Part shown: piece by piece, positions 2,672-51,044 of the stretch
Layout: each line of letters opens with the position of its first letter
How positions within the stretch are numbered: the stretch's first letter is position 1
NCBI RefSeq assembly: GCF_019683635.1
Contig: NZ_JADGIA010000002.1
Location: 1-64,000 of the forward strand
From: Thermogemmatispora sp.
Lineage (GTDB): Bacteria > Chloroflexota > Ktedonobacteria > Ktedonobacterales > Ktedonobacteraceae
DNA length: 64,000 nucleotides
Reading direction: 5' to 3'
Notes under the pieces: model-generated
Database searches by the model: none
Seen by the model: the letters and a program-made list of their open reading frames with translations, nothing else
What the model was told of the DNA's origin: nothing
Translations under genes and position numbers: made by a program

Positions 2672-4159
2672 CTAGCGGCTGATGCTGAGCTGAACAATGC
2701 GGCGGGTAGTACGGCTGAGGCGAACGGACTCAGCCAGGCAGAGGCCAGCGATCCAGATGCAGCGCGAGCCGGCGAAGAAGAGCGGGAGGGTATCCCGTTC
2801 TGAGCGCGGGACGTGGGCATCGACGAGCACATCCTGGACCTTACGGCTCTGCTGCATGCCCAGTGGCTGAATGCGATCGCCCGCCCGGCGCGTGCGCACC
2901 TGCAACAGCGGGCCAGCGGCTTCACCATCGATATATACAACATAGCGCGTCCGTGGCAGAAGGTGCCAGACCGCCTCCCAGTCTTCACGCGCCAGAGCCT
3001 CCAGGGCTGCCTGCTCGACATCAGGAGCCAGGAGCGTTGCCCGAGCGCGCCAGGGGGTGCCAGGAACCTGGCCTTCCCCGGGGACAGGCAAGAGGAGCGC
3101 CTCATCATCTAAAGCCGTGTCCCGCGTCTGTCGATTCTGAGGGCTGTGGAAGAGACGTAGCGTTGACCCACTTACCTGCAGCTGAAGCCGACCAGGGAGA
3201 TCTAACGAGCGCTCCGCCCGTGAGCGCTGCGCCTGCTGCAGGAAGGCCTCTAGCAGAGTATAGTGACGCGGCTCTAACGGAGACTGGCCTCCGCAGAGCA
3301 AAGCCGTGGCGCGGCGTAGCAGGTGTCGCTGCAAACTAAGCGGCTGTGCGAGCAACGCCGGTAGGGTTATGACTACCTCCTCTGCACTGGTGCTGGTTAC
3401 CACCGCTGACCAACTCTGCGAGACGCAACTTTCTATCCATTCCAGGTCGACGCGCAAGACCTCGGCACTGCGACGCAGCGTTTCGCGAATGCCCGGATTG
3501 AGCTGCTCAAGGAGTGGCAGCAGCTCGTGGCGCACACGATTACGCAAGAATCGCGGGTCGCGATTGCTCTCGTCTTCCAGGGGCTTGAGGCCCTGCTGCT
3601 GACAGTAAGCGAGAATCTCCGCCCGGCTCACTTCCAGTAAGGGACGGATAATATCCTGTTGACGCGGAGCCATGCCGACCAGGCCCGCCAGGCCACTGCC
3701 GCGCAGGAGGTGGAGCAGAATCGTCTCCACCTGATCATCGGCCTGATGGGCGACGGCAATGAGGCGCCCCCGGGCTACATCGCGCAGAAAAGCATAACGA
3801 GCCAGACGAGCGGCCTCCTCCAGGGAGCGTTTCTCACGTCGCGCCAGCGCCGGGACATCCACGCTGCCGATGGTGAGAGGAATGCCCCAGGCTGAAACCA
3901 GACGGGCAACATGGAGAGCATCCCGCTCGCTCGCCTGGCCGCGCAGGCGATGGTTCAGGTGAGCGGCAAACAGGCGCACCGTGGGAAAGGGCCTACCCTC
4001 GCCACAGAGCGAGCGCAGCAGGTGGAGCAGACAGAGCGAATCAGCTCCGCCCGAGACAGCAACGACAATCTCACTCTGTGGAGGAAGCAGGCCATGACGA
4101 GCAATGTAGGCGGCCACCCTGGCCGTGAGCCACTCACTGCTGGCTGGCGCGGATACCAC
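2672..4159 (-). CDS. tilS: tRNA(Ile)-lysidine synthetase
   Basis: A 495-residue enzyme that attaches lysine to C34 of the tRNA(Ile) CAU anticodon using ATP, changing it to read AUA. The N-type PP-loop SGGADS is at residues 36-41, followed by the conserved LAxxHHxDDQxET-like stretch (VAHQADDQVETILL) and the IRPLL segment. The substrate-binding middle domain and a C-terminal TilS_C-like region (RRAGDRIQP, then DVLVDAHVP) complete a full-length bacterial TilS. The chosen GTG start has GGAGG six bases upstream. It reads divergently from def and heads the tilS-hpt pair. Confidence 0.95.
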   Translation of the reverse strand: MVSAPASSEWLTARVAAYIARHGLLPPQSEIVVAVSGGADSLCLLHLLRSLCGEGRPFPTVRLFAAHLNHRLRGQASERDALHVARLVSAWGIPLTIGSVDVPALARREKRSLEEAARLARYAFLRDVARGRLIAVAHQADDQVETILLHLLRGSGLAGLVGMAPRQQDIIRPLLEVSRAEILAYCQQQGLKPLEDESNRDPRFLRNRVRHELLPLLEQLNPGIRETLRRSAEVLRVDLEWIESCVSQSWSAVVTSTSAEEVVITLPALLAQPLSLQRHLLRRATALLCGGQSPLEPRHYTLLEAFLQQAQRSRAERSLDLPGRLQLQVSGSTLRLFHSPQNRQTRDTALDDEALLLPVPGEGQVPGTPWRARATLLAPDVEQAALEALAREDWEAVWHLLPRTRYVVYIDGEAAGPLLQVRTRRAGDRIQPLGMQQSRKVQDVLVDAHVPRSERDTLPLFFAGSRCIWIAGLCLAESVRLSRTTRRIVQLSISR

Positions 4160-4200
4160 GTCCCACCTCCGCCGTCTATGGATAATCGCATGCTCATGTG

Positions 4201-4228
4201 ATAGGATATATACGCAAATTATATAACA
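4201..4228. promoter_or_regulatory. AT-rich divergent promoter region between tilS and def
   Basis: A markedly AT-rich stretch between two divergent genes. On the minus strand TATAAT (4223-4218) fits a tilS -10 about 60 bases upstream of its GTG; plus-strand TATATA-like hexamers could serve def. No certain -35 was found. Confidence 0.45.
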
Positions 4229-4288
4229 TTGACTGCCAGACTGTGGCTGTGTGGCAATTCATTCGGGATACATCTCGGGAAAAGAGCT

Positions 4289-4792
4289 ATGGCGATTCGC
4301 AAGATCATTACGGCTGAAAACCCCATCTTGAGGCAAAAGGCCAAGAAGGTGCATCGCTTTGATGCCTCCATGAAGCGGCTGGTGGAGGACATGTTTGACA
4401 CCATGCACGCCGCGCATGGGGTTGGCCTGGCCGCTCCCCAGATCGGCTTGTCGATCCGCGTCTTCGTCGCAGAGTACGAGGACCACAAAGTGGCGGTTTT
4501 CAATCCAGAGATCATCAGAGCCGAGGGGGAGACGCTGGGAACCGAGGGGTGCCTCAGCATTCCGGGTTATGTAGGAGATAACATCAGGCGAGCCGAAAAG
4601 GTGGTAGTCAGAGGCCAGAACGTCGAGGGCAAACCGATCAAGGTTCATGCCGAGGGCTGGTTTGCCCGTATTCTGCAGCACGAGATTGACCACCTGGATG
4701 GCATCCTCTTTTTGGATCGCCTCGATCGCCCTGAAGACCTGCGTCCAGCGCGCGAAGGGGAGATCGAAGAGCCGGAACCAGAGGTAGTCTAA
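4289..4792 (+). CDS. def: Peptide deformylase
   Basis: Removes the N-formyl group from nascent proteins; a cytoplasmic metalloenzyme. All three family motifs are present: GVGLAAPQ (residues 44-51), EGCLSIP (86-92, metal-ligand Cys) and HEIDHLDG (131-138, two metal His and catalytic Glu). The ORF is open from 4229, but the ATG at 4289 has GGGAAAAGAG just upstream and gives MAIRKI, the typical start; the protein is then 167 residues, normal for type 1 deformylase. There is an acidic C-terminal tail. fmt, its usual neighbour, is absent. Confidence 0.95.
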   Translation: MAIRKIITAENPILRQKAKKVHRFDASMKRLVEDMFDTMHAAHGVGLAAPQIGLSIRVFVAEYEDHKVAVFNPEIIRAEGETLGTEGCLSIPGYVGDNIRRAEKVVVRGQNVEGKPIKVHAEGWFARILQHEIDHLDGILFLDRLDRPEDLRPAREGEIEEPEPEVV

Positions 4793-4801
4793 GGCCGACG
4801 A

Positions 4802-4850
4802 GAGGACCTGCACCAGCAGGGGCATAATGTCGATGCTGGCGCGGGTCCTC
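4802..4850. terminator. Hairpin between convergent def and zinc-ribbon gene
   Basis: GAGGACCTGC pairs with GCGGGTCCTC (one wobble) and an inner CCAGCA pairs with TGCTGG, followed by CTTGTTATTA. It sits just after the def stop, between convergent genes. The U-tract is weak. Confidence 0.5.
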
Positions 4851-4940
4851 CTTGTTATTACTCCTTGCGCTCGTCCAAGGCAGAGCTGCCGGCTTATATG
4901 GTGCGTATGGTGCAATCCGGGCTGGCTGAACCACTGTCGA

Positions 4941-5309
4941 CTAGCCCTGTCGTTGCTGCTTGCGTAACATAGGCATCGGCTGCTGGCCTAGAAGGCGTTC
5001 GCACTCACGACAGATGTAGAAGCCTTCTTCTCGCCAGCGCAGCTCGCTCAAGCGATAGTACAGATAGCAGATGCCGCAACGCGTGCTATCGGGCAGGCTG
5101 GCTATCTGCCGGTCTCGCTCAAACAGGGCGCGTAGCTCCGCAATGAGGCCGTTGAGGTCAAACGAACCAGCAGATCCGCGTCCACTGGCGCTCTGTGACA
5201 CTGACGCTGGTGTAGCGCCATTCGTCGTGCGCCCTTCACGCCGATGTGAAAAAGAGCTGCCGCTGGCCGAAGCGCCGTTGCCTGAGCCTGGTATTGGATG
5301 GCTGCTCAC
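4941..5309 (-). CDS. Small zinc-ribbon protein of unknown function
   Basis: About 122 residues from the GTG at 5309, which has GGGGGAG upstream; the ORF track extends to a TTG at 5339 without a ribosome site. The N-terminal half is Ser/Gly-rich and probably disordered. The C-terminal half begins with a helical segment (LNGLIAELRALFERD), then CGICYLYYRLSELRW...YICREC, two CxxC knuckles about 20 residues apart, which is a treble-clef or zinc-ribbon arrangement. No family recognised. It is convergent with def. Confidence 0.55.
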   Translation of the reverse strand: MSSHPIPGSGNGASASGSSFSHRREGRTTNGATPASVSQSASGRGSAGSFDLNGLIAELRALFERDRQIASLPDSTRCGICYLYYRLSELRWREEGFYICRECERLLGQQPMPMLRKQQRQG

Positions 5310-5796
5310 TGCCAGTATTCTCCCCCTTTGTGCCGGCAATGCAAGACCAACTATTATCTGTCAATTATATACCTCGTCGAAGCTCTTCGTCTAGGGCCGC
5401 TGCCACGCGAGAGTTGCGCTCTGATGGGGCGCTGGACCAGCATACCGCTCTTCCTCGCTTCGCTCTATACCTCTCAGGTGCTTTGCTTCCTCCTCGCCAG
5501 ACCTTTACCGTCCTCTTATAGAATGAGGATCTCCTTCAGCAAGTATTAGCTCTATCCCTTTGTGTCCCTTTGCCTATCTATCTTGTATAATGCTCCTAAG
5601 AAAGATCCCGGCTGCCAAGAAGCAGGCAGCCAGAGCGTTCTATCTATAGAGAAGGCGCGGTCCCTCTGCTTAAAGGCACAAAGGGAAGGGTTGGCCCTGG
5701 ACCGTGCAGGAAGACAAAAAATCGAGAGCCATGCATATCTCTGTGCTATGATAGACCTTGTTATGGCAGTGCGATGATATTCAACTTGGGGACAGG
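5310..5796 (+). other. Intergenic region with promoters and a hairpin-rich stretch
   Basis: Gap of nearly 490 bases between divergent genes. It holds a TATAAT at 5586-5591, a GGCTGCC/GGCAGCC hairpin (5610-5616 with 5625-5631), a GGTCC...GGACC pairing possibility near 5660-5702, and a TGn-extended -10 at 5744. No convincing ORF was seen. Confidence 0.5.
5744..5752 (+). promoter_or_regulatory. Extended -10 promoter of the membrane protease gene
   Basis: TGCTATGAT, a TGn-extended -10. Transcription would begin near 5759, leaving a leader of about 38 bases before the ATG at 5797. No good -35 is visible. Confidence 0.5.
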
Positions 5797-7749
5797 ATGC
5801 CTGCTATGAATTGCTATGCAACTATCTCTGCCGGACCCAGCGGCAGCCACCCGCGGGAGAGGAAGGCCAACTCACGAGGGTTACCTTCTCTGCTCGTTGT
5901 TATGTTCTGCTTCATCTGTGGGCCTGTGCTCCTGCTAACAGCCCTGGAGGGGCCGGCAGCGCGTGCCGATGGCGTGCCAGGGGGCAATGTCCAGGACCCC
6001 GTGGTGAGAGCGGTAGATATTGCCCGGCCTGCCGTCGTGCGCATCGTCACCCAAATAAACGGACGGCTCACGGTACAATTCTCTGGTGGGCGCAGTGTGA
6101 CCTTTCCACTCGATGGAGGCAGCTATGGCCTGGCTGCCCTTGGAACAGGGACCTTTATCAGCGCCCACGGCGATATACTCACAGCTGATCATGTAGTTAA
6201 TCCTCCCCATAACGATGAACTCAATGCTGTGCTAATCAAGGCGGCGGCCCCCGATGTGGCAACCTACTACAACAGCACGCTGGCGCGCGGCAATCAGCTC
6301 AGCGCTGATCAGATGGAGCAAGCCTTGCTCAGTGGCCAATTCCCCTCTACGCCTAGCTATGATCCTCCAGTCAGTGCTGTTTACCTCAGCACTGACTACA
6401 GCGGCCCGTTGAGTGCGACCCGTTTACGCGATGTGCCGGACGCCTATTTTGCCCGCGTTGACCGTGTTGAGCAAGAAAGCCCGCCGGATCAGAAGGACGT
6501 CGCCATCATCCACGTGAATATGGAGGATACCCCAAGTGTCCAACTCGGTGACTCCTCGGCTGTCCAGGTCCAGGACAACCTGACCATTATCGGTTTTCCG
6601 GGCAATGCCGATGTCAGTATGCGTCCGACGGACTTTCTGACTTCATCGGTGAATCGCATCTTTGTCAGCTCGATCAAGACAACCGACAGTGGGGCGCAGG
6701 TCATCCAGGTAGGGGGCAATGTAGAGCAAGGCGACAGCGGTGGGCCGGCCCTCGATAGTCGAGGCCAGGTGGTGGGTATTGTCAGCTTTGGCACTCCTGG
6801 AGGAACCAGCTTTCTGCAGGCCAGCAATAGCGCGCGGGCTTTGATCCAGAACCTCCAGCTGAATACCGCGCCGGGACCGTTCCAGACTGCCTGGAGCCAG
6901 GCCTTCAACGATTATGCCTCCACTGCTCCTGGCCATTGGCATCGCGCGGCTCAGGAATTTGCCACACTGGCTGCTCGCTACCCTGCTTTCAAAGCCGTGA
7001 CACCCTATCTGGACTATGCCAGACAGCAGGCTGCTCATGAGCAGCTATCGACGACTGCAAGCCAGGGGCAGGGTGCGCCCCTGCTCCTCATAGTAGCTGG
7101 GGGCTTGGGAGCTGTAGTCATAGTGGCGCTGCTTGTGGGGGCCGTCTTCCAGCTCAGACGCCGGAGACGGTCAGCGGGCATCTCCCCAGTCGTGAACGCC
7201 GCGAGCAGCCAGAGCTATCCCTATAGAGCGGCCCAGGGTCAGGGCACGCCGCCGGCCTGGCCATCGGCTCCTGCTCTCTATCCCTCGATGCCAGCTGGAG
7301 CGCAGCCTCCACAAGCCCCAGCTAGGACCCCGGTCCCCACGGGACCATCTGCTGCTCCCGGCTCTCAAGCCTCGTGGCCGGCGGGTCCTGGCAGCCAGCC
7401 CCCTGGGCTTTCCCCGTCTGCTGCACTGCCGTCTGTCTCCGGGCCAGCGTCACAGCTCCCACCAGCTGCAAAAGTGGCGGCCTCCTCTTATCCCTCGCCA
7501 GAGCCGGAGGATGAGAACACCCTGGTACCGTTCGGCGGCCCTCCACGAGACGCCGGCGTCAGGGGACAGCCGCGGCTGTCCCCGGGAGGCCAGGCTGCTC
7601 CTCCATCAATAGCCACAGGGAGCCAGTCGCCTACAGAGCAGCTGCGTCCCTGGCCCTGTGGTCACCTGAATCGCCCCCACGCACGCTACTGCAGTACCTG
7701 TGGAGAGCCGGCACCGCCGCCACCAACAGTGCGCCGGATCGAGCAGTGA
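5797..7749 (+). CDS. Membrane-anchored trypsin-like (S1C/HtrA-like) serine protease with C-terminal zinc ribbon
   Basis: About 650 residues. A hydrophobic signal or anchor segment lies at residues 29-50 (LPSLLVVMFCFICGPVLLL). The protease domain shows the triad in order: His132 in TADHVVN, Asp234 in KDVAIIHV and Ser314 in QGDSGGPA. A second membrane helix follows (LLLIVAGGLGAVVIVALLVGAV) with an Arg-rich stop-transfer sequence. The remaining tail of about 180 residues is Pro/Ala/Gln-rich and would be cytoplasmic, ending in a Cys/His cluster (CGHLNRPHARYCSTCG) resembling a zinc ribbon. Protease outside, ribbon inside is inferred from the helix order. There is no PDZ domain, so this is not a classical DegP. 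The ATG at 5797 has GGGGA five bases upstream. Confidence 0.85.
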   Translation: MPAMNCYATISAGPSGSHPRERKANSRGLPSLLVVMFCFICGPVLLLTALEGPAARADGVPGGNVQDPVVRAVDIARPAVVRIVTQINGRLTVQFSGGRSVTFPLDGGSYGLAALGTGTFISAHGDILTADHVVNPPHNDELNAVLIKAAAPDVATYYNSTLARGNQLSADQMEQALLSGQFPSTPSYDPPVSAVYLSTDYSGPLSATRLRDVPDAYFARVDRVEQESPPDQKDVAIIHVNMEDTPSVQLGDSSAVQVQDNLTIIGFPGNADVSMRPTDFLTSSVNRIFVSSIKTTDSGAQVIQVGGNVEQGDSGGPALDSRGQVVGIVSFGTPGGTSFLQASNSARALIQNLQLNTAPGPFQTAWSQAFNDYASTAPGHWHRAAQEFATLAARYPAFKAVTPYLDYARQQAAHEQLSTTASQGQGAPLLLIVAGGLGAVVIVALLVGAVFQLRRRRRSAGISPVVNAASSQSYPYRAAQGQGTPPAWPSAPALYPSMPAGAQPPQAPARTPVPTGPSAAPGSQASWPAGPGSQPPGLSPSAALPSVSGPASQLPPAAKVAASSYPSPEPEDENTLVPFGGPPRDAGVRGQPRLSPGGQAAPPSIATGSQSPTEQLRPWPCGHLNRPHARYCSTCGEPAPPPPTVRRIEQ

Positions 7750-7814
7750 GGCAATTGACAAGACAAGCAACCGGGAGATGAAAGAGGGCCAACTCACAAA
7801 ACAAAAAGAACAAG

Positions 7815-7840
7815 GGCACTCCCCTCGCTGGGGGAGTGCC
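7815..7840. terminator. Bidirectional terminator between protease gene and fabI
   Basis: A perfect 10-bp stem, GGCACTCCCC / GGGGAGTGCC, with a six-base loop. A T-containing tail follows on the plus strand and an A-rich stretch precedes it (a U-tract for the minus transcript). It lies between two convergent genes. Confidence 0.75.
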
Positions 7841-7977
7841 TCTATTGTTGCCTCTCTTGCGCCATCGATCAGCGCCAAGGCCAGGTAAGCCAGAGCTAGC
7901 AGGCTCCTTCCTGGGAGGACTCGAAGCTCTGGACGCGCCGCAAGCGAGGCTTGATCTATCCAGATCTCCGCAGCTGT

Positions 7978-8751
7978 CTAGGCTCCCATAATATGGTAGC
8001 CAGCGTCCACGAAGAGCACCTCGCCCGTGATCCCTCGTGCCAGCGGGCTGCAGAGGAAGAGCGAGGCATCGCCGATCTCGCTCTGTTCAATATTACGGTG
8101 TAGCGGAGCCACCTCCGTCATATGATCGCGCATCGTCGTAAAACCAGGGACACCGCGCGCAGCCAGAGTATTCACGGGTCCTGGCGAGACGGCGTTGACG
8201 CGGATATTGTAAGCGCCAAGCTCATAAGCCAGGTAGCGCACGCTACACTCCAGAGCCGCTTTCGCCACGGCCATCACATTGTACTTGGGCATCACTCGCT
8301 CACTGGCAATGTAGGTAGCCGTCAGAATGCTTCCGCCGCCGCGCGCCTGCATCAGAGGCACTGCGCGCCGGGCCATAGCCACTAGCGAATAGGCGCTGAT
8401 ATCCAGAGCAGTCAAAAAGCCCTGACGGCTGGTCTGCCAGAAGGGATTGTCCATATCCTCCTTGGGGGCAAAAGCGATTGAATGGATCAAAATATCGAGA
8501 CCGCCGTCAAAGACTTCCGCCGCCTTAGCAAAAGCGGCATCGAGCTGCTCATCGCTCTGCACATCGCAGGGGATCAGCGGCGTACCTGGCACCTTCTCGG
8601 CCAGCTCCCGCACAAACTTTTCCATGCGCTCCTGATAGGTCAAAGCCAGTCGGGCGCCCTCAGCAGCCAGAGCCTGAGCGATGGCCCAGGCGATCGAGCG
8701 GTGATTGGCCACACCGAAAATAAGCGCGTTCTTTCCTTCCAAGAGAGGCAT
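7978..8751 (-). CDS. fabI: Enoyl-[acyl-carrier-protein] reductase (NADH), FabI type
   Basis: A 257-residue enzyme for the last reduction of each fatty-acid elongation round. It is a divergent SDR: nucleotide-binding region GVANHRSIAWAIA (residues 13-25), and the FabI triad Tyr147, Tyr157, Lys164 in the spacing seen in E. coli FabI. C-terminal SPLARGITGEVLFVDAGYHIMG is also typical. AGGAG lies ten bases before the ATG. It stands alone, convergent with the protease gene; other fab genes are not in the window. Confidence 0.95.
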   Translation of the reverse strand: MPLLEGKNALIFGVANHRSIAWAIAQALAAEGARLALTYQERMEKFVRELAEKVPGTPLIPCDVQSDEQLDAAFAKAAEVFDGGLDILIHSIAFAPKEDMDNPFWQTSRQGFLTALDISAYSLVAMARRAVPLMQARGGGSILTATYIASERVMPKYNVMAVAKAALECSVRYLAYELGAYNIRVNAVSPGPVNTLAARGVPGFTTMRDHMTEVAPLHRNIEQSEIGDASLFLCSPLARGITGEVLFVDAGYHIMGA

Positions 8752-43162: not shown

Positions 43163-43834
43163 TTAGGCGATCTGCTGCGCTCTGGCGGCGTATTGTTTCA
43201 GTAAGGCGGCGATCAGGAAGGGATCGCCGTAGGCTGTATCCGTAGTGACAACGACCTCGCTATTGGTGCGTGTGTCGATGAATGCGAGCGAGGTAGGGGC
43301 GCGCGAATTCATCGCCTTGCGCCGTTCCTCTGGCGACTGGGTCATACCACGCCCAAAGAGAAAGCCCACCATGTTTTCGCTGGCGCTGCCAAGTTGCGCA
43401 AGCTGGTTGGTGGGTGGCGTGCGGTCCGGCTTGGCCCGGCCTCTGGCTGTCACATAGCGGACGTTGATCAGGGGAACGTGAATGACCTTGCTCCCGCTTT
43501 GCTGCACAAAGTCCTCGGGCGTGATGACAATCAGATAATCCTGCGCTCTGATGAGACGACGTACGTCGTTGATCAGGCACCAGATGCTGCCAAGACCGAT
43601 GAAGAGGAGAATACCGAGAAAGATCGTGCTGGCAATCGCTCCGAAGGCGCTGTGGTAGTTTTCGGGTACCATGATAGGAAAGATTGCTGCAAATAGGATG
43701 AGGCCCAGAGCTGCCCCGAAGAGCCACCCGATGATCGAGAGGATCACTCTGCCGCGCTGCAGCGGCAGCACAATCCAGCCATCTGGCTTTTCTTCCCCCG
43801 CTCTGGCGCGAGTCAATATTTCGGATGCTTCCAT
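43163..43834 (-). CDS. Two-helix membrane protein, unknown function
   Basis: About 223 residues from ATG 43834 with GGGAGG nine bases upstream; the ORF to 43918 is longer than needed. Two membrane helices (IIGWLFGAALGLILFAAIFPIMV and ASTIFLGILLFIGLGSIWCLI) are followed by a strand-rich cytoplasmic domain (LIVITPEDFVQQSGSKVIHVPLINVRYVTARG), like PH-type YcxB/DUF domains. The function is unknown. It lies 120 bases upstream of coaX on the same strand. Confidence 0.75.
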   Translation of the reverse strand: MEASEILTRARAGEEKPDGWIVLPLQRGRVILSIIGWLFGAALGLILFAAIFPIMVPENYHSAFGAIASTIFLGILLFIGLGSIWCLINDVRRLIRAQDYLIVITPEDFVQQSGSKVIHVPLINVRYVTARGRAKPDRTPPTNQLAQLGSASENMVGFLFGRGMTQSPEERRKAMNSRAPTSLAFIDTRTNSEVVVTTDTAYGDPFLIAALLKQYAARAQQIA

Positions 43835-44267
43835 GACCAGGAACCTCCCATAGGTATGAGGGCGTGTCCGCTCCCTTGCCGCCGCGCTACGCCTGGCCGT
43901 CTCGCCCGCCGCGCGCACCAGGTAGGACTAGCCGCCTGCCTGTCTCCCTCAATTATAGCAAAATCAAGGCCACTGCACAGAAGGTTTCTGCCCGGTCTCC
44001 GCTGCGCCTGCCAACCCTGATTGGGCCGGGCCTGGCCCTCGATCGCTGGCCCTCATGCGGACGCCTGCCATCTTTCCGGCTCTGTCGGCTCTGCCTCGTC
44101 GCTGGTTGGCCACCGCGGACGGGCATGATATCATGATATAATGCTGCAGAATCTGTGGATCTCCTCTTTCTTCCTCTCTCTGACCGGCCTGTGGTCTCCA
44201 ACGAGATGGCAGGACGACAGGAGGGGCAGGAAGCAAAGAACGAGTTGCGGGGAGGGAGGCGCCATCT
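43835..44267. other. Divergent intergenic region
   Basis: About 430 bases between the membrane protein and the helicase fusion gene; the only clear element is the extended -10 at 44134. Confidence 0.5.
44134..44142 (+). promoter_or_regulatory. Extended -10 of the ImmA-helicase fusion gene
   Basis: TGATATAAT, with a perfect hexamer, inside a small palindromic context (ATGATATCATGATATAAT). Start near 44149, leader of about 120 bases. Confidence 0.6.
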
Positions 44268-47200
44268 ATGGAACAAGAGACCCGCGCGCTGGCCACGCTG
44301 ACGGCTCGCTATTTGCGCCAGCGCTATCGCTACGTCAGGCCATCCTGGAAGGCCGAGGCCCTTCCGCTGGATGAGTTGGTTGCCTGGCTTGGGCTGGAGA
44401 TCGCCACCTTTCACCCTGCTGATCACCCCCCAGGTACCTACGGCTATCTGGAGCCTGGCGACAATCTGATCTGGATCTGCCGTAATCTGCCAGAGCCTCA
44501 GCGGCGCTTTACGCTCGCGCATGAACTCGGTCATGTTATCCTCCATCGTCCTCTAAATGAGACGATGCTCCTTCTGCTACCCGAACTTGAAGAGATCTTA
44601 GAGCCTCTCGAACGAAGACTGGCAGTGCTTGCTGAGGAGGAGCAAGACCAGATCGCTTTCTGCGGAGAGGAGGAGATTCGCGAGGAGATCGGGGCACTCT
44701 CTGATGAGGGGAGTGTCGAGGAGCTGCTCGGCCCTGGTCAGTCCTATAGCCCTCGCAGCCAACGCGAGCTGGCTGCTAATCTCTTTGCTGCCGAGCTGCT
44801 GATGCCTCTGGAGGCGGTGCGTGCCCTCTATGTGGAGCATGGCCTCCCGCCGGCCTATCTGGCTAACCGCTTCGGGGTCTCACAGGCCGCTATGCTTAAC
44901 CGTCTGGCTGGGCTACTCAAAGAATATCCTCCTGTCATGGAGCCACAAGTCCAGCCAGAAGAGCAACCCGCAGAAGAGCCTCAGCAGCGCCCAGGGCCTG
45001 CTCTTTCATCTGCGCCTGCACCAACGAGGGCGGGCCGGTCTTACGATGAGTTTCAGCAGGCGGCCATTGCTGCGTCCACCCCAGCCCTGGTGATCGCCGG
45101 GCCGGGCAGCGGTAAAACCAGTACGCTTATCGGGCGCGCCGAGTATCTGATCCGCTCCTGCGGCGTCGCGCCGCGCTCTATTCTGGCCCTCACCTTTTCG
45201 CGCAAAGCCGCTGAAGAGATGCAGGAGCGTCTGAGTCAGGCTCTGCGGGCCTCTACCGGGCCGAAGAGCGCCGCCTGGGAGCTGCCGGCAGTGAGCACCT
45301 TTCACGCGTTCTGCGCCGAGTTTCTGCGCCAGTATAGCGAGCTGGCGGGCCTCCGTCCAGACTTTACCCTGGTTGACGACGCCGAGGGCTATTTCTTACT
45401 GCGCAGCCTGACGCCTCGCCTTCCCCTCTATTATTATCACCATCTGACGCAGCCCACGCTCTACTTCCCCGAGATCCTCAAGGCCATCTCGCGGGCCAAA
45501 GATGAGCTGGTGACCCCTGAACGCTATCGTCAGCTGGCGGAGCGGATGCTGGAGCAGGCCCAGACCGTTGAAGAGCGCGAGCGGGCGGAGCGTGCCCGTG
45601 AAATTGCGGCGGTCTATGCCCTCTATCAAGAGGAACTGGAGCGGCGTGGCGACATCGACTTTGGCGGCCTGATCATGCTGACAGTGCAGCTCCTCGAACG
45701 CTATCCTGATCTCCTGCAACAGCTGCAGCATCGCTACCAGCATATCCTTGTCGATGAATTTCAGGATATCAATCGAGCCAGTGGCGTTCTGCTGCGCCTA
45801 CTAGCAGGGGAGGCCCGCCGTGTCTGGGTGGTGGGCGATGCGAATCAGGCCATTTACGGCTTCCGAGGAGCCTCTCCGGCCAACATCGCCCGCTTCCGTG
45901 AAGATTATCCGGGGGCTGCAATCCTCTCGCTGAACCGCAATTATCGCTCGCGCCCCGATATTGTCGCGCTGGCAGAAGCCTTTCGCCTTCAGCGTCTGGA
46001 GGCTGGACACTTCGGTGAAGAGGCAGCGCTGCGGCGCAACGAAGCTGTACGCCCCTCGCTGCCAGAGCCGTATGTGACGCTGGCGGTGGCCGAGGATGAG
46101 GCCGCCGAGCTGGCGGGCCTGGTCGCTGATCTCCAGGCGCGTGCTCGCCAGGGATATCGCTACCGCGATCTGGTTGTGCTCTGCCGCACGCGCGCTCAGG
46201 CCCGGCGCATCTCGCAAGCGCTGGCGACGGCGGGCCTGCCGGTCATAGAGAACGGGGGTACCCTGGAACAGGAACACGTTAAGGATGCGCTGGCCCCCCT
46301 CCTGCTGCTGGCAGGACCGAACGGTATGGGGCTGCTCCGCGCGGCACGCTGGCCGGAGTACTCCCTGAGTCAGACCGATGTTGAGGCCCTCCTGTTGGCA
46401 GCGCGTGAGCAGCAGGTTGCCCCGGGCCTGCTCGTGCTGCGTGGCGATATTCCCGAGACCCTCAGCGATGCCGGGCGGCGCTCACTGCGCCTGCTCAGCG
46501 AGCTGCTTCAGCGCCTGGCTTCGGCTCCCGATATCTGGTCTCTGCTCGCTCAATATCTCTTGGTCGAAACCGATCAGGTGCGCCGCCTCCTGGCCCGCAA
46601 TGATCCCCAGGCGCGGGCCATCCTGGCCGACTATGCCCTGTTGCTCCAGCTGGCACGACGCTATGACCTGCAACAACAGCGCCAGCTGCGCGAGGAACCC
46701 GCACCGGCAGAGAATCAGCCTATCAGCCCACTAGCGGATGCTGCGCAGACTGGTCCTCTCTATGAGCAGGTCCGTGGCTTCCTGGAATATTTACGCGTCC
46801 TTTTGATGCTGCGTCAGGACAGCAGCACGCGCCAGCAGAGTCTTGAGGAGAGCCAGGGGGATGGGGCGGATGTGGTGCGGGTCATGACTGTCCACGCCAG
46901 CAAAGGTCTGGAGTTTCCCGTGATCTATTTGCCTGGACTGAATCAGCAGCGCTTTCCTGCCACGCGACGCTATAATCCCGTGCCGCCCCCCGACGGCATG
47001 CTCTCCCTCGAAAGCGATGAGGCCGCCCTCCATGAGATCGGCGAAGCCTGCCTCTTCTATGTCGGCGTCACGCGCGCCCGAGATTATCTCGTTCTAAGCT
47101 ATAGCCGTCGCCCAGGCAAGCGTGCGGCAAAACCTTCCGTCTTTTTGGAGCCACTGCTGGCCGGTCTGCCACCTGAGCGCCTCATCAGGATAGAATGGCG

Positions 47201-48071
47201 CGGACCAGGACCAGGTCAGAACGAGCCAGCCGCGGCTGACGAAGAAGAGAGGCGCGGGGAGTCTGAGGCTGCTCTTTTGACCCGGCCCCACGAAGAATTT
47301 ATCCGCGCCATGCAGCCGGAAGTCCTCAATGCCTCTGCTGTCGAATGCTATCAGCAATGCCCGCGTAAGTATCTCTACAACTATATCTATCGTTTCCAGC
47401 CTCTTCAAGAAGGTTACTCCCTCTTTGTTCAGGCGACGCGTAGAACGCTGGAGACGCTCTATGAGTGGGTTGGACGAGCGCAGCGGGCCACCGCCGAGGG
47501 ACAGCAGGTGTCAGCGACCCCGCCGACGCGTGAAGATGTGCATGAACTTTATAGCCGATACTGGCGCGAGCTTGGCGGCCACGAATCCCCTTTTGCCTCG
47601 CTGTACGAACGGCATGGACGCGAGGTAGCTGAGCAGCTCCATCGCAAGCTGCTGGACAGCGCCGAGACGCAGCGCTGGCAGCTCTGGCGAGGCTTCACCA
47701 TTGAGATCGCCGGGCAAACGATTCGCGTCGATGTCGATCGCGTCGAGATGCCGCGGCAGCCTGAGCAACCGGTGCGCTTCGTGCGTACGCGCTTTGGCCG
47801 ACGCAAGCAGGAGCCGGAGCCGGACACGCGCGAATTACTCTATATGCATGCTTATCGTGAGCACTATCCCGGGCAGGAGGTCGAGCTTCACAGCGATAAC
47901 CTGACCACGGGCGAGATCAAGACTGTCAAGCTTGGACAGCGGCGCGAGCAGACTCTCTACTCCAGGCTGGTCGAGAGTCTGGAGCGCCTCAAAGAACACG
48001 ATTACGCCGCGACTCCCGCTGACCCGGGCCGTTGTCCGATGTGCCCCTTCTTTCTTATCTGCCCGGCCTGA
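44268..48071 (+). CDS. ImmA/IrrE metalloprotease fused to UvrD/AddA-type helicase with RecB-like C-terminus
   Basis: 1267 residues, GAGGGAGG before the ATG. Residues 1-220 are a zinc protease domain of ImmA/IrrE type: HELGH (85-89) and the second motif ELAANLFAAELLMP with Glu176. A Pro/Gln-rich linker (220-255) leads to an SF1A helicase: Q-motif near 258, Walker A AGPGSGKT (277-284), Walker B VDEFQD (495-500), GDANQAIYGFRGA, and motifs V-VI (VMTVHASKGLEFPVIYLP, FYVGVTRARDYL). The C-terminal region has the RecB-family start LNASAVECYQQCPRKYLYNYIYRF and a final CxxC-x5-C, an Fe-S staple. The nuclease ExK site is unclear. IrrE/ImmA proteases cut repressors after DNA damage, so the fusion suggests damage sensing tied to strand processing (inference). 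Confidence 0.92.
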   Translation: MEQETRALATLTARYLRQRYRYVRPSWKAEALPLDELVAWLGLEIATFHPADHPPGTYGYLEPGDNLIWICRNLPEPQRRFTLAHELGHVILHRPLNETMLLLLPELEEILEPLERRLAVLAEEEQDQIAFCGEEEIREEIGALSDEGSVEELLGPGQSYSPRSQRELAANLFAAELLMPLEAVRALYVEHGLPPAYLANRFGVSQAAMLNRLAGLLKEYPPVMEPQVQPEEQPAEEPQQRPGPALSSAPAPTRAGRSYDEFQQAAIAASTPALVIAGPGSGKTSTLIGRAEYLIRSCGVAPRSILALTFSRKAAEEMQERLSQALRASTGPKSAAWELPAVSTFHAFCAEFLRQYSELAGLRPDFTLVDDAEGYFLLRSLTPRLPLYYYHHLTQPTLYFPEILKAISRAKDELVTPERYRQLAERMLEQAQTVEERERAERAREIAAVYALYQEELERRGDIDFGGLIMLTVQLLERYPDLLQQLQHRYQHILVDEFQDINRASGVLLRLLAGEARRVWVVGDANQAIYGFRGASPANIARFREDYPGAAILSLNRNYRSRPDIVALAEAFRLQRLEAGHFGEEAALRRNEAVRPSLPEPYVTLAVAEDEAAELAGLVADLQARARQGYRYRDLVVLCRTRAQARRISQALATAGLPVIENGGTLEQEHVKDALAPLLLLAGPNGMGLLRAARWPEYSLSQTDVEALLLAAREQQVAPGLLVLRGDIPETLSDAGRRSLRLLSELLQRLASAPDIWSLLAQYLLVETDQVRRLLARNDPQARAILADYALLLQLARRYDLQQQRQLREEPAPAENQPISPLADAAQTGPLYEQVRGFLEYLRVLLMLRQDSSTRQQSLEESQGDGADVVRVMTVHASKGLEFPVIYLPGLNQQRFPATRRYNPVPPPDGMLSLESDEAALHEIGEACLFYVGVTRARDYLVLSYSRRPGKRAAKPSVFLEPLLAGLPPERLIRIEWRGPGPGQNEPAAADEEERRGESEAALLTRPHEEFIRAMQPEVLNASAVECYQQCPRKYLYNYIYRFQPLQEGYSLFVQATRRTLETLYEWVGRAQRATAEGQQVSATPPTREDVHELYSRYWRELGGHESPFASLYERHGREVAEQLHRKLLDSAETQRWQLWRGFTIEIAGQTIRVDVDRVEMPRQPEQPVRFVRTRFGRRKQEPEPDTRELLYMHAYREHYPGQEVELHSDNLTTGEIKTVKLGQRREQTLYSRLVESLERLKEHDYAATPADPGRCPMCPFFLICPA

Positions 48072-48391
48072 AGTCTTCTCTCTGGCCTCTCATTGCCTAC
48101 CATACCCTCATCTGGCCAAGAAGCCTGTAGTCTGGCCTGAGCCGGCAGAGCTAGAAGGCCAACTTGCCTCCTCCCGCGACACTCAGTATGGTATAATGGC
48201 CGCCAGGTGAGACGGGCCACTGCCGCCCGTCGCTTCCGAGAAGCTGACCCTTTCTTCTGGCTGGAGCCATGACCAGGGGTAAGAGACGCTCTTCAGGAGA
48301 GGGTGAATCTAGACCATTTCTCAAGAGAGAGAAGTAGCAGGTACAATAGATACAGGGCGTGCTACTCCATGCCCGCACACGAGGCATCGGC
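48072..48391 (+). other. Intergenic region before the HerA operon
   Basis: About 320 bases with one extended -10 (48189) and no ORF. Confidence 0.5.
48189..48197 (+). promoter_or_regulatory. Extended -10 upstream of the HerA operon
   Basis: TGGTATAAT, identical to the cmk element; a TTGCCT lies 22 bases upstream, too far for a standard -35. Leader of about 185 bases. Confidence 0.5.
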
Positions 48392-49087
48392 ATGTTCATA
48401 GGAAAGATCGTCAAATCCGACTCGCATATCAATTACGTCTGTCAGATTTATGGCCCACGCGAGGTCGAGGTCGAGCCGGCGCCTGAAGACTATGCCTTCG
48501 GACGCTTTGTGCGTATTGCTGTGCGTGCACGCCAGGGCGATGATCCCGAGGCGGAGCTGCATCGCGTGCTGGGTATGAGTACGGAGCCGAGAACCTACGC
48601 CGTCGGCGTGATTTATGATACCATCCTGCTCAATCCGAGCTTCGGCTCGCTGGGGCCGCGCCTCTCTAACGAGACTCAGGTTGAGCTATTCTCGCCGGAC
48701 TACATTGCCGAGCGCGCCGTGCTGATCTATGTCATGGTGCTCGGCATGATGCAGGAGCGAACCACTCCCGAGGGCCAGACCGAGGTCTTCTCCATCATGC
48801 ATGGTGTTCCTCTGCTCTCGCTGGAGCTGGGCAGCGAGATTGAAACAATGGACGACGAGCAGGTGCGGGCTTTCCATTTCTTCAGCGACCCCGACAGGCC
48901 GGATGAGCCGCCCTATCTCCATATGGGCTACCTGCCTCACATCATTGCCCAGCGCAATAGCTTGCTACCGATGGTAGCGCTCTGCATCATCGATCAGCTC
49001 GAACGCCTATTTCCTCAGAATCTCTCTCTGCTCTCAATTGTCAAACGTAACTTCGCCTGGCGTCTCAAGGTTGAAACCACTGGCTAG
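48392..49087 (+). CDS. Probable HerA partner protein with HAS-barrel-like N-terminus
   Basis: 231 residues from ATG 48392 (GAGG seven bases upstream). The N-terminal 90 residues are strand-rich (IGKIVKSDSHINYVCQIYG, then YAFGRFVRIAV), as in HAS-barrel domains that precede HerA ATPase cores; the rest is helical. No catalytic motif recognised. It is encoded 211 bases upstream of HerA, whose own N-terminus also has strand content, so a role as a HerA-associated subunit is inferred from context. Confidence 0.6.
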   Translation: MFIGKIVKSDSHINYVCQIYGPREVEVEPAPEDYAFGRFVRIAVRARQGDDPEAELHRVLGMSTEPRTYAVGVIYDTILLNPSFGSLGPRLSNETQVELFSPDYIAERAVLIYVMVLGMMQERTTPEGQTEVFSIMHGVPLLSLELGSEIETMDDEQVRAFHFFSDPDRPDEPPYLHMGYLPHIIAQRNSLLPMVALCIIDQLERLFPQNLSLLSIVKRNFAWRLKVETTG

Positions 49088-49298: not shown

Positions 49299-51044
49299 AT
49301 GGTAAGTGATTCTGCCAATGTGCCACCTGTTTCGCGAGGGCGCACAGGTCGCAAGCCTGTGGGCATTACCAAGGGACCGGGTGAGTCGGCCCATGAATAT
49401 ACCTTTGTCTCGCGCGACGATGAGCAGGTGCTCAAGAACGGCGAGTATGTCTATTATGAGCTGAATGAGCCTGATGAATGGGGCCAAAACGGCGCTCAGC
49501 CGGTGGCGCGGCGCGTTCTGGGCCGTATCATCAAGCGTGTCCCGCTGCAGCTCTATCCCGACACCTTCCTGGCGGAGCCGGAGGTTTCGCCGGCCCAGGT
49601 CGCGGCGATGGTGGGCTACGATGCGCGGGCCAACGAACTCTTCGAACTGCACGTAGCCATCATGGGCTATTATGATCCCGAAAGCGGCTCCTTCATTAAT
49701 CCCTGGATACCACCCCAGTCGGGCAAGCAGATTTTTCTGGCGGACGATGAGATGCTCTCGCAGATTCTCTGCCGCAAGCGCGTCGGCCAGCCTGGCTCGG
49801 CAACCATCGGCTCGCTGCTGACGCGGACTCCAGGGGCGGTGCCCATTGTGCTCTCGGTCAAGGATTTTGTCAGTACGCATCTGGCTATTATTGCCAGCAC
49901 CGGCGCCGGCAAGAGCTACCTGGCCAGCGTGATTATCGAGGAGCTGATGCGGCCCTACAATAAGGCTTGCGTGCTCATCGTTGATCCGCATGGCGAATAC
50001 GGCACGCTCGATCAATTGCCCAATCTTCCCGAATTCTCTGAGGAGAGTGGCGAGGAGGGCGTCGAGGGCTACCGGGCCCAGGTGCGTATCTATCGCCCCG
50101 ATCAGGTCAAGGTCCGTCTCTCAACCCTGAACATGGGGGACATGCGTCACCTCCTGCCTGAAATGACTGAAAAGCAGCAGTATCTGCTGAACCGGGCTTT
50201 GCGCAAAGTGAACGAGACGAAGCGAGGTACGCCCTGGAGCGCGCAGGACTTGATGGAGGCTATTCGCAAAGTGGCGCGCAACAAGAACGATGAAGACGGC
50301 GAGGGGGCTGACGATTCCACTACAATGCATGCCTTGATGTGGCGTATCGAGCAGCGCTTTGTCGATAGCTTCACCTTCGATGATGTCCAGCATCTGGATC
50401 TGCGCGAGATCTTCAAGCCCGGTCAGTGCACGGTACTGCAGCTTAACGAAGTTGATGAACGCGATCAGCAGGTCATTGTCGCCACGCTCCTGCGCCGCCT
50501 CTATCAGGCGCGCATGAACACCGAACGCGGCAAAGTGCACTCTGGTGAATCCTATCTGCCCTATCCAGTCTTTGTGCTGCTAGAGGAGGGTCATCACTTT
50601 GCGCCGAGCGGCACTGAGGTGGTCTCGACCCAGATTCTCAAGCAGGTGTTGGCTGAGGGGCGCAAGTTCGGCATCGGCGTAGGCATTATCAGTCAGCGGC
50701 CCGGCAAGCTCGACGCCGATGTGTTGAGCCAGTGCCAGACGCAGTGCATTATGCGCATTGTCAACGAGATCGATCAGAAGAGTGTTGCCGCTGCTATTGA
50801 AGGGGTTGGTCGTGATCTGCTGGATAATCTGCCTGCTCTCTCGAAGGGCCAGGTGATTGTGGCGGGAGCTGCTGTCAATACGCCGGTGATCTGCCGTGTT
50901 CGCCAGCGCCTGACCCGGCACGGAGGCGAAAGCAAGGATGCCCCAGATATCTGGCAGAAGTATTTCAGCTCGGAGGCTCGCGAGAGCCGCCGCCTCCAGG
51001 AGGCCCCGCTGGGGAACAACCAGGGGTTCAGCCTGTTGAAATAA
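49299..51044 (+). CDS. herA: HerA-type hexameric ATPase / DNA translocase (DUF87)
   Basis: 581 residues. The HAS-barrel-like N-terminus (to about 180) precedes a FtsK/HerA ATPase core: Walker A STGAGKS (200-206), VLIVDPHGEYG, Walker B VFVLLEEGHHFAP, and the sensor region GIISQRPGKLDADVLSQCQTQ, plus the arginine-finger region RIVNEIDQKSVAAAIE. HerA pumps DNA, usually for the NurA nuclease in end resection, or for Sir2-type partners in defence. No NurA is visible here. GGAG precedes the ATG, and the next two genes follow with three-base spacers, so one operon. Confidence 0.92.
   Translation: MVSDSANVPPVSRGRTGRKPVGITKGPGESAHEYTFVSRDDEQVLKNGEYVYYELNEPDEWGQNGAQPVARRVLGRIIKRVPLQLYPDTFLAEPEVSPAQVAAMVGYDARANELFELHVAIMGYYDPESGSFINPWIPPQSGKQIFLADDEMLSQILCRKRVGQPGSATIGSLLTRTPGAVPIVLSVKDFVSTHLAIIASTGAGKSYLASVIIEELMRPYNKACVLIVDPHGEYGTLDQLPNLPEFSEESGEEGVEGYRAQVRIYRPDQVKVRLSTLNMGDMRHLLPEMTEKQQYLLNRALRKVNETKRGTPWSAQDLMEAIRKVARNKNDEDGEGADDSTTMHALMWRIEQRFVDSFTFDDVQHLDLREIFKPGQCTVLQLNEVDERDQQVIVATLLRRLYQARMNTERGKVHSGESYLPYPVFVLLEEGHHFAPSGTEVVSTQILKQVLAEGRKFGIGVGIISQRPGKLDADVLSQCQTQCIMRIVNEIDQKSVAAAIEGVGRDLLDNLPALSKGQVIVAGAAVNTPVICRVRQRLTRHGGESKDAPDIWQKYFSSEARESRRLQEAPLGNNQGFSLLK

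Follow-up and report, generated by a model that had tools for sequence, protein, structure and literature searches.

The nearest described systems are two M78 (ImmA/IrrE) proteases with XRE-type partners: PprI/IrrE, whose partner in Deinococcus is DdrO, is activated by single-stranded DNA (ssDNA; PMC10904395), and CapP, as described in PMC13373217, is ssDNA-activated and cuts CapH. The gene considered here, designated C, lies in a window of 64,000 nucleotides (the whole stretch of DNA that was analysed) and encodes an M78 protease fused to a UvrD-type helicase and a PD-(D/E)XK domain; in most relatives outside the window's lineage it stands third in a tight operon, behind A, an ECF-like sigma factor, and B, an XRE-type HTH protein of about 200 aa.

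With CapH and CapP this system shares the M78 protease, the XRE-type partner gene, and a ubiquitin-like (Bub-type) operon downstream, CapP being moreover the top PDB match of the C protease domain; but the protease of C forms one protein with a UvrD motor and an Fe-S domain, and the near-constant third gene encodes a sigma factor, so that the CapH/CapP arrangement of a stand-alone M78 protease plus an XRE repressor is not the one found here. The IrrE/PprI-DdrO system, for its part, resembles that of C in the M78 fold, the chromosomal location, the XRE-type partner, and the plausible ssDNA signal (PMC10904395), whereas PprI carries a GAF-like C-terminal domain where C has the helicase, and operates without a sigma factor. 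RecB, AddA, AddB, and AdnAB likewise have a UvrD-type motor followed by a PD-(D/E)XK domain with four cysteines, but C lacks the nuclease catalytic residues, bears an N-terminal protease, and has no partner subunit that we could find. The ECF sigma/anti-sigma pairs released by proteolysis offer the same two-gene arrangement of a sigma factor and an inhibitor-like protein together with a protease, although here the components are cytoplasmic, the putative anti-sigma factor B is of XRE type, and a DNA-motor protease stands in place of the membrane proteases. Finally, CapK and CapS form a damage-responsive controller upstream of Bub operons, but through a kinase/STAS chemistry involving neither protease nor helicase (PMC13373217).

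We propose that C serves as both sensor and protease in a transcription switch whose other two parts are the sigma factor A and the XRE-type B, a reading to which we assign a probability of about two in three, and we file A-B-C as a variant of the M78-XRE DNA-responsive regulators. Each of the parts was already known; what is apparently new is their combination in three genes and the use of a motor-protease fusion as a controller, no published account of either having been found in the openly available literature searched. To our knowledge, the described controllers of bacterial immune operons (CapH/CapP, CapW, and CapK/CapS) all act on repressors; if the proposal is true, the triad would add positive control, exerted through a sigma factor of its own and a protease coupled to a motor, would account for the regulation of a set of Bub-type operons, and would give an entire bacterial class another DNA-responsive system in addition to LexA.

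Architecture of the Fusion Protein

The first-pass annotation had taken C for a single protein joining an ImmA/IrrE protease, an SF1 helicase, and a RecB-like region. The reading frame proved uninterrupted, with all four Pfam matches (Peptidase_M78, UvrD-helicase, UvrD_C, and PDDEXK_1) above the gathering cut-off, and, since independent assemblies repeatedly contain fusions of about 1130-1420 aa in a single ORF, the fusion is not an assembly artefact. Its features are as follows.

44268-48071 (+): gene C, one uninterrupted ORF of 1267 aa; M78 (ImmA/IrrE) protease, UvrD-type SF1 helicase, and PD-(D/E)XK Fe-S domain
44397-44906 (+): Peptidase_M78 domain, residues about 44-213; Pfam PF06114, 2.2e-18
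44520-44534 (+): HELGH zinc-binding/catalytic motif, residues 85-89; H, E, and H invariant in 18 distant members
44763-44807 (+): second M78 motif, RELAANLFAAELLMP, residues 166-180; E invariant in 18 members
44907-45047 (+): Pro/Gln/Glu-rich linker from protease to helicase, residues 214-260, read from the sequence
45051-47108 (+): UvrD-helicase N and C domains, residues 262-947; Pfam, invariant motifs, PcrA match
47325-48065 (+): PD-(D/E)XK (RecB/AddB-type) domain, residues 1020-1266; PDDEXK_1 PF12705, 1.8e-10
47358-47360 (+): first Fe-S cysteine, C1031; invariant column in 18 distant members
47778-47798 (+): FVRTRFG at the D-x-K-T-G site, residues 1171-1177; D and K both substituted
48033-48062 (+): the other three Fe-S cysteines, C1256, C1259, and C1265 (CPMCPFFLICPA); invariant columns in 18 distant members

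The protease, with its HELGH and second motif intact as first described, was confirmed by the Pfam match and by the profile search of the PDB, which retrieved CapP (7t5t, 3.5e-11) and then IrrE (3dte, 5.8e-10). The domain terminates in the 'LANRFGVSQAAMLNRL' helices, and E167 is expected to be the third zinc ligand. The helicase likewise stood as claimed, from Walker A and B to the late motifs: UvrD-helicase matched residues 262-548 (2.6e-70) and UvrD_C residues 554-947 (5.6e-32), the PcrA structure 1pjr was matched at 1.6e-69, and the SF1A UvrD/PcrA-type motif set was complete (Walker A at 278-284, DEFQD at 496, GDANQAIYGFRGAS at 523, VHASKGLEF at 875, and VGVTRARD at 932). That C might be PcrA itself was ruled out by a score far under the PcrA/UvrD equivalog cut-offs. 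Over 18 distant fusion members, the H, E, and H of HExxH, the third-ligand E, the helicase motifs, and the four cysteines were all invariant.

The RecB-like region held in part: a PD-(D/E)XK domain with four Fe-S cysteines is present, but the catalytic D-x-K is lost. Active RecB-type nucleases carry a D-x-K-T-G motif; the D-x-K was missing from 18 of 18 aligned fusion members, which loss led us to reject C as an active nuclease. The domain is thus probably devoid of nuclease activity, and, because the D-x-K is absent in all 18, our preferred reading of the C-terminus is an Fe-S domain that would bind DNA without cleaving it. The AlphaFold model of this domain (mean pLDDT 48) was too poor for a fold search, and a three-sequence profile of it gave no useful match in the PDB.

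These residues also bear on whether C could be mainly a DNA-repair motor, engaged in AddA/RecB-like resection or fork processing, with the M78 domain as a secondary or self-processing activity. C is in fact a core gene, vertically kept in the class, and in the window's genome (G000, 93% complete) no AddAB/RecBCD-like PDDEXK_1 protein was found, the domain being matched, besides C, only in a 188-aa fragment and in one helicase:

Contig C210 of G000 (locus L276), 4917-8054: Dna2-like helicase with PDDEXK_1

Resection by C is nevertheless unlikely because the nuclease residues are lost in every member compared; moreover, the M78 active site is invariant and the constant partners of C are sigma and HTH genes, not nucleases. 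We consider a primary repair function improbable. The earlier idea that DNA-end processing and repressor cleavage are one act is not supported as worded in its first half, given the loss of the same catalytic residues, whereas the pairing of an XRE-type B with C across bacteria fits a DNA handling tied to the cleavage of an HTH protein.

Distribution of the Fusion and Its Neighbors

The phyletic survey that the first-pass annotation had suggested found the fusion as a single ORF across the class to which the window belongs (47 genomes searched, with C copies partial or undetected in some draft assemblies), in 13 further Chloroflexota genomes (353 searched outside the class), on plasmids, in E. 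coli, and on viral contigs. The class appears to be Ktedonobacteria, and the genus Thermogemmatispora. A profile search of genome contigs gave at least three new fusions among the matches listed, where common UvrD helicases were abundant. PcrA-type helicases with inteins were observed in two class genomes (L059, L060).

In the window's order, a single neighbor of C was broadly conserved:

43163-43918 (-): divergent predicted membrane protein next to C, kept in 15 of 20 neighborhoods

Downstream of C lie a 242-aa protein (48359-49087, +), with no Pfam match, and a HerA-like ATPase (49299-51044, +), both 97-100% conserved within the genus and absent from this position in the other loci examined. 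We rejected the HerA neighbor as a functional partner of C, confined as it is to the window's genus among those loci.

The A-B-C Operon in Relatives

The observation that no HTH gene adjoins C is correct for the window, but B is present, together with the ECF-like sigma factor, on another contig of the same genome, and in most relatives from outside the lineage the two genes immediately precede C. The hosts of the operon include Chloroflexota, rhizobia, cyanobacteria, Acinetobacter, Klebsiella, and one E. coli. A plasmid search recovered C homologues in Rhizobium, Sinorhizobium, Bradyrhizobium, Leptolyngbya, and one Abditibacteriota plasmid, all preceded by two small genes, A and B, whose profiles also matched upstream of Chloroflexota C copies. 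B was directly upstream of C in the Chloroflexota loci L041-L054, the plasmids L061-L065, Sphingomonas, Pseudomonas, Chloroflexi GWB2, and two IMG/VR contigs, with A preceding B in nearly all of these loci (including Sphingomonas, Pseudomonas, and GWB2). Further plasmids of Klebsiella, Acinetobacter, Robbsia, Cereibacter, Agrobacterium, and Mesorhizobium kept the A-B-C order, and the full module was found on the chromosome of one E. coli, strain CP61_Sichuan, which makes the system approachable in ordinary laboratory strains. As exceptions, L045 has B with no recognized A, and in genome G013 a paralogue C and its A-B are on separate contigs. The two IMG/VR contigs (L189, L223), which carry B-C, also bear phage-type genes; L223 has B and C only, and in L189 the contig end cuts A.

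On plasmids, a multiubiquitin-ThiF-DUF6527 operon usually follows A-B-C, and ubiquitin-like (Ub-like) genes, which are thought to act in phage defence, often adjoin its relatives. Such plasmid, prophage, and defence-gene surroundings, along with the resemblance of the C helicase part to GajB models, would suit a role in toxin-antitoxin or abortive-infection defence with C as the effector, a Gabija-like helicase acting on phage DNA. The GajB models, however, match UvrD-type helicases generally, no GajA-like partner was found, the class-wide C is chromosomal and without defence genes around it in the window, and the downstream Ub-like operon is separate, with its own promoter motif. We regard this as the least probable of the alternatives considered.

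A and B in the Window's Genome and Class

In the class the A-B pair is not beside the primary C copies; in G000 it lies on contig C205 (locus L076), with A at 3919-4773 and B at 4784-5461. This A matched Sigma70_r4_2 (PF08281, 5.6e-8, above gathering) and PF07638 (also above cut-off), and this B matched HTH_31 (4.7e-8, above gathering). The A profile retrieved sigma factors, the Acinetobacter A being already annotated as a sigma-70 factor, while the B profile retrieved XRE repressors, including DdrO (0.037) and 7t5u (0.0023); the AlphaFold model of B (mean pLDDT 50) was too poor for a fold search.

The search for a co-occurring XRE repressor, likewise suggested at the outset, placed B in 47 of 47 class genomes, by a profile built partly from genomes later counted with it, and among the 353 genomes outside the class C and B occurred in exactly the same 13. 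A adjoined B in all 30 loci examined, some of these loci overlapping one another, with A split over two ORFs in one genome. The trees of C and B each separated the unlinked "primary" set from a paralogue set (support 100/100 and 98/98), and the pairing between trees was equalled in 0 or 1 of 500 shuffles, to which agreement shared ancestry contributes, the B labels having been in part assigned by the analyst. As A-B is unlinked from C in the window's genome and the promoter motif described below is absent there, the link between them rests on universal presence and on the trees. Second A-B pairs without an adjacent C occur in the window's family beside a nickel-insertion-type gene (L078, L080, L081, L082, and L093).

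In one version of our proposal, B would be a DNA-binding repressor, analogous to CapH or DdrO, of A-B-C or of target promoters, C would derepress by cutting B, and A would be an ordinary co-regulated sigma factor. The IrrE/DdrO and CapP/CapH systems operate in that way (PMC10904395, PMC13373217), and the XRE HTH is the sole recognizable domain of B; but A adjoins B even where C is not beside them (30/30), indicating an A-B pair, and B has conserved N- and C-terminal parts outside the HTH. We hold this version tentatively, at somewhat below even odds. The XRE domain favors DNA binding, and B may well have both roles; the togetherness of A and B where C has moved away favors a sigma/inhibitor pair, and, judging from these gene arrangements, the switch probably controls a sigma factor rather than a repressor alone.

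Promoter Motifs

In eight plasmid loci, the sigma-type promoter motif TTACCG-N17-CGATT stands shortly upstream of the multiubiquitin/Ub-like gene, with a fixed spacer of little-conserved filling; we counted 22 sites (up to one mismatch) versus 3.4 expected over 14 loci, many of them from related plasmids. The motif was also found in the E. coli module, while in Chloroflexi GWB2 the form TTTCCG-N17-CGATT precedes A as well as the Ub-like gene. In several loci of the class paralogue group, A is preceded by TTTCCG-N17-[CT]GTAT (7 in 8.2 kb versus 0.17 from the local background), and this form also precedes both the paralogue C of G013 and the corresponding A-B on another contig (L055:4857 and L090:8656).

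Gene A itself contains a second TTACCG-N17-CGATT (L186:7208, with counterparts in L062, L065, L183, L185, L187, and L188), which is an exact match in the majority of these plasmid loci. This copy may simply follow the protein sequence YRSxLxxAI; it is possibly an internal promoter, since NCG ATT is kept though the residue varies. No such motif was present upstream of either C or A-B in the window's genus. Upstream of C, the genus has a TTGGCC...TATAAT-like block, which carries an 8-bp insertion in the window and is a weak candidate.

Proposed Mechanism

Since PprI/IrrE and CapP are ssDNA-activated M78 proteases with XRE-type partners, the simplest account is that C cuts B. In the resting state, the sigma factor A would be kept silent by B, which could act as an anti-sigma factor or else as a repressor; the C motor would engage ssDNA or DNA ends arising from damage or invasion, and this engagement would bring the fused protease into its active state, upon which it would cut B. 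Sigma A, thus freed or derepressed, would transcribe its own operon and, on plasmids, the ubiquitin-like operon as well, while in the window's lineage the parts would form a chromosomal system with A-B on the other contig. The cleavage of B by C, the type of inhibition exerted by B, and the triggering role of the motor are what we infer in this scheme.

We are evenly divided over a more specific proposition, in which the protease is switched on by the ATP-driven helicase to which it is fused, not by passive ssDNA binding, and an ECF sigma factor is thereby released from its XRE-type inhibitor; the system would act chromosomally beside LexA throughout the class, whereas on plasmids, in hosts ranging from cyanobacteria to enterobacteria, it would be mobile and control ubiquitin-like operons. 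LexA was present in G000 and in 44 of the 47 class genomes, for which reason the system is not the only damage response of the class and its interpretation as a LexA replacement was rejected.

On a further contig of G000 (C319, locus L277, 1-3326), a sigma70 region-2-like gene, a 126-aa gene, and a stand-alone M78 protease occur in one run, apparently the logic of A-B-C without the helicase.
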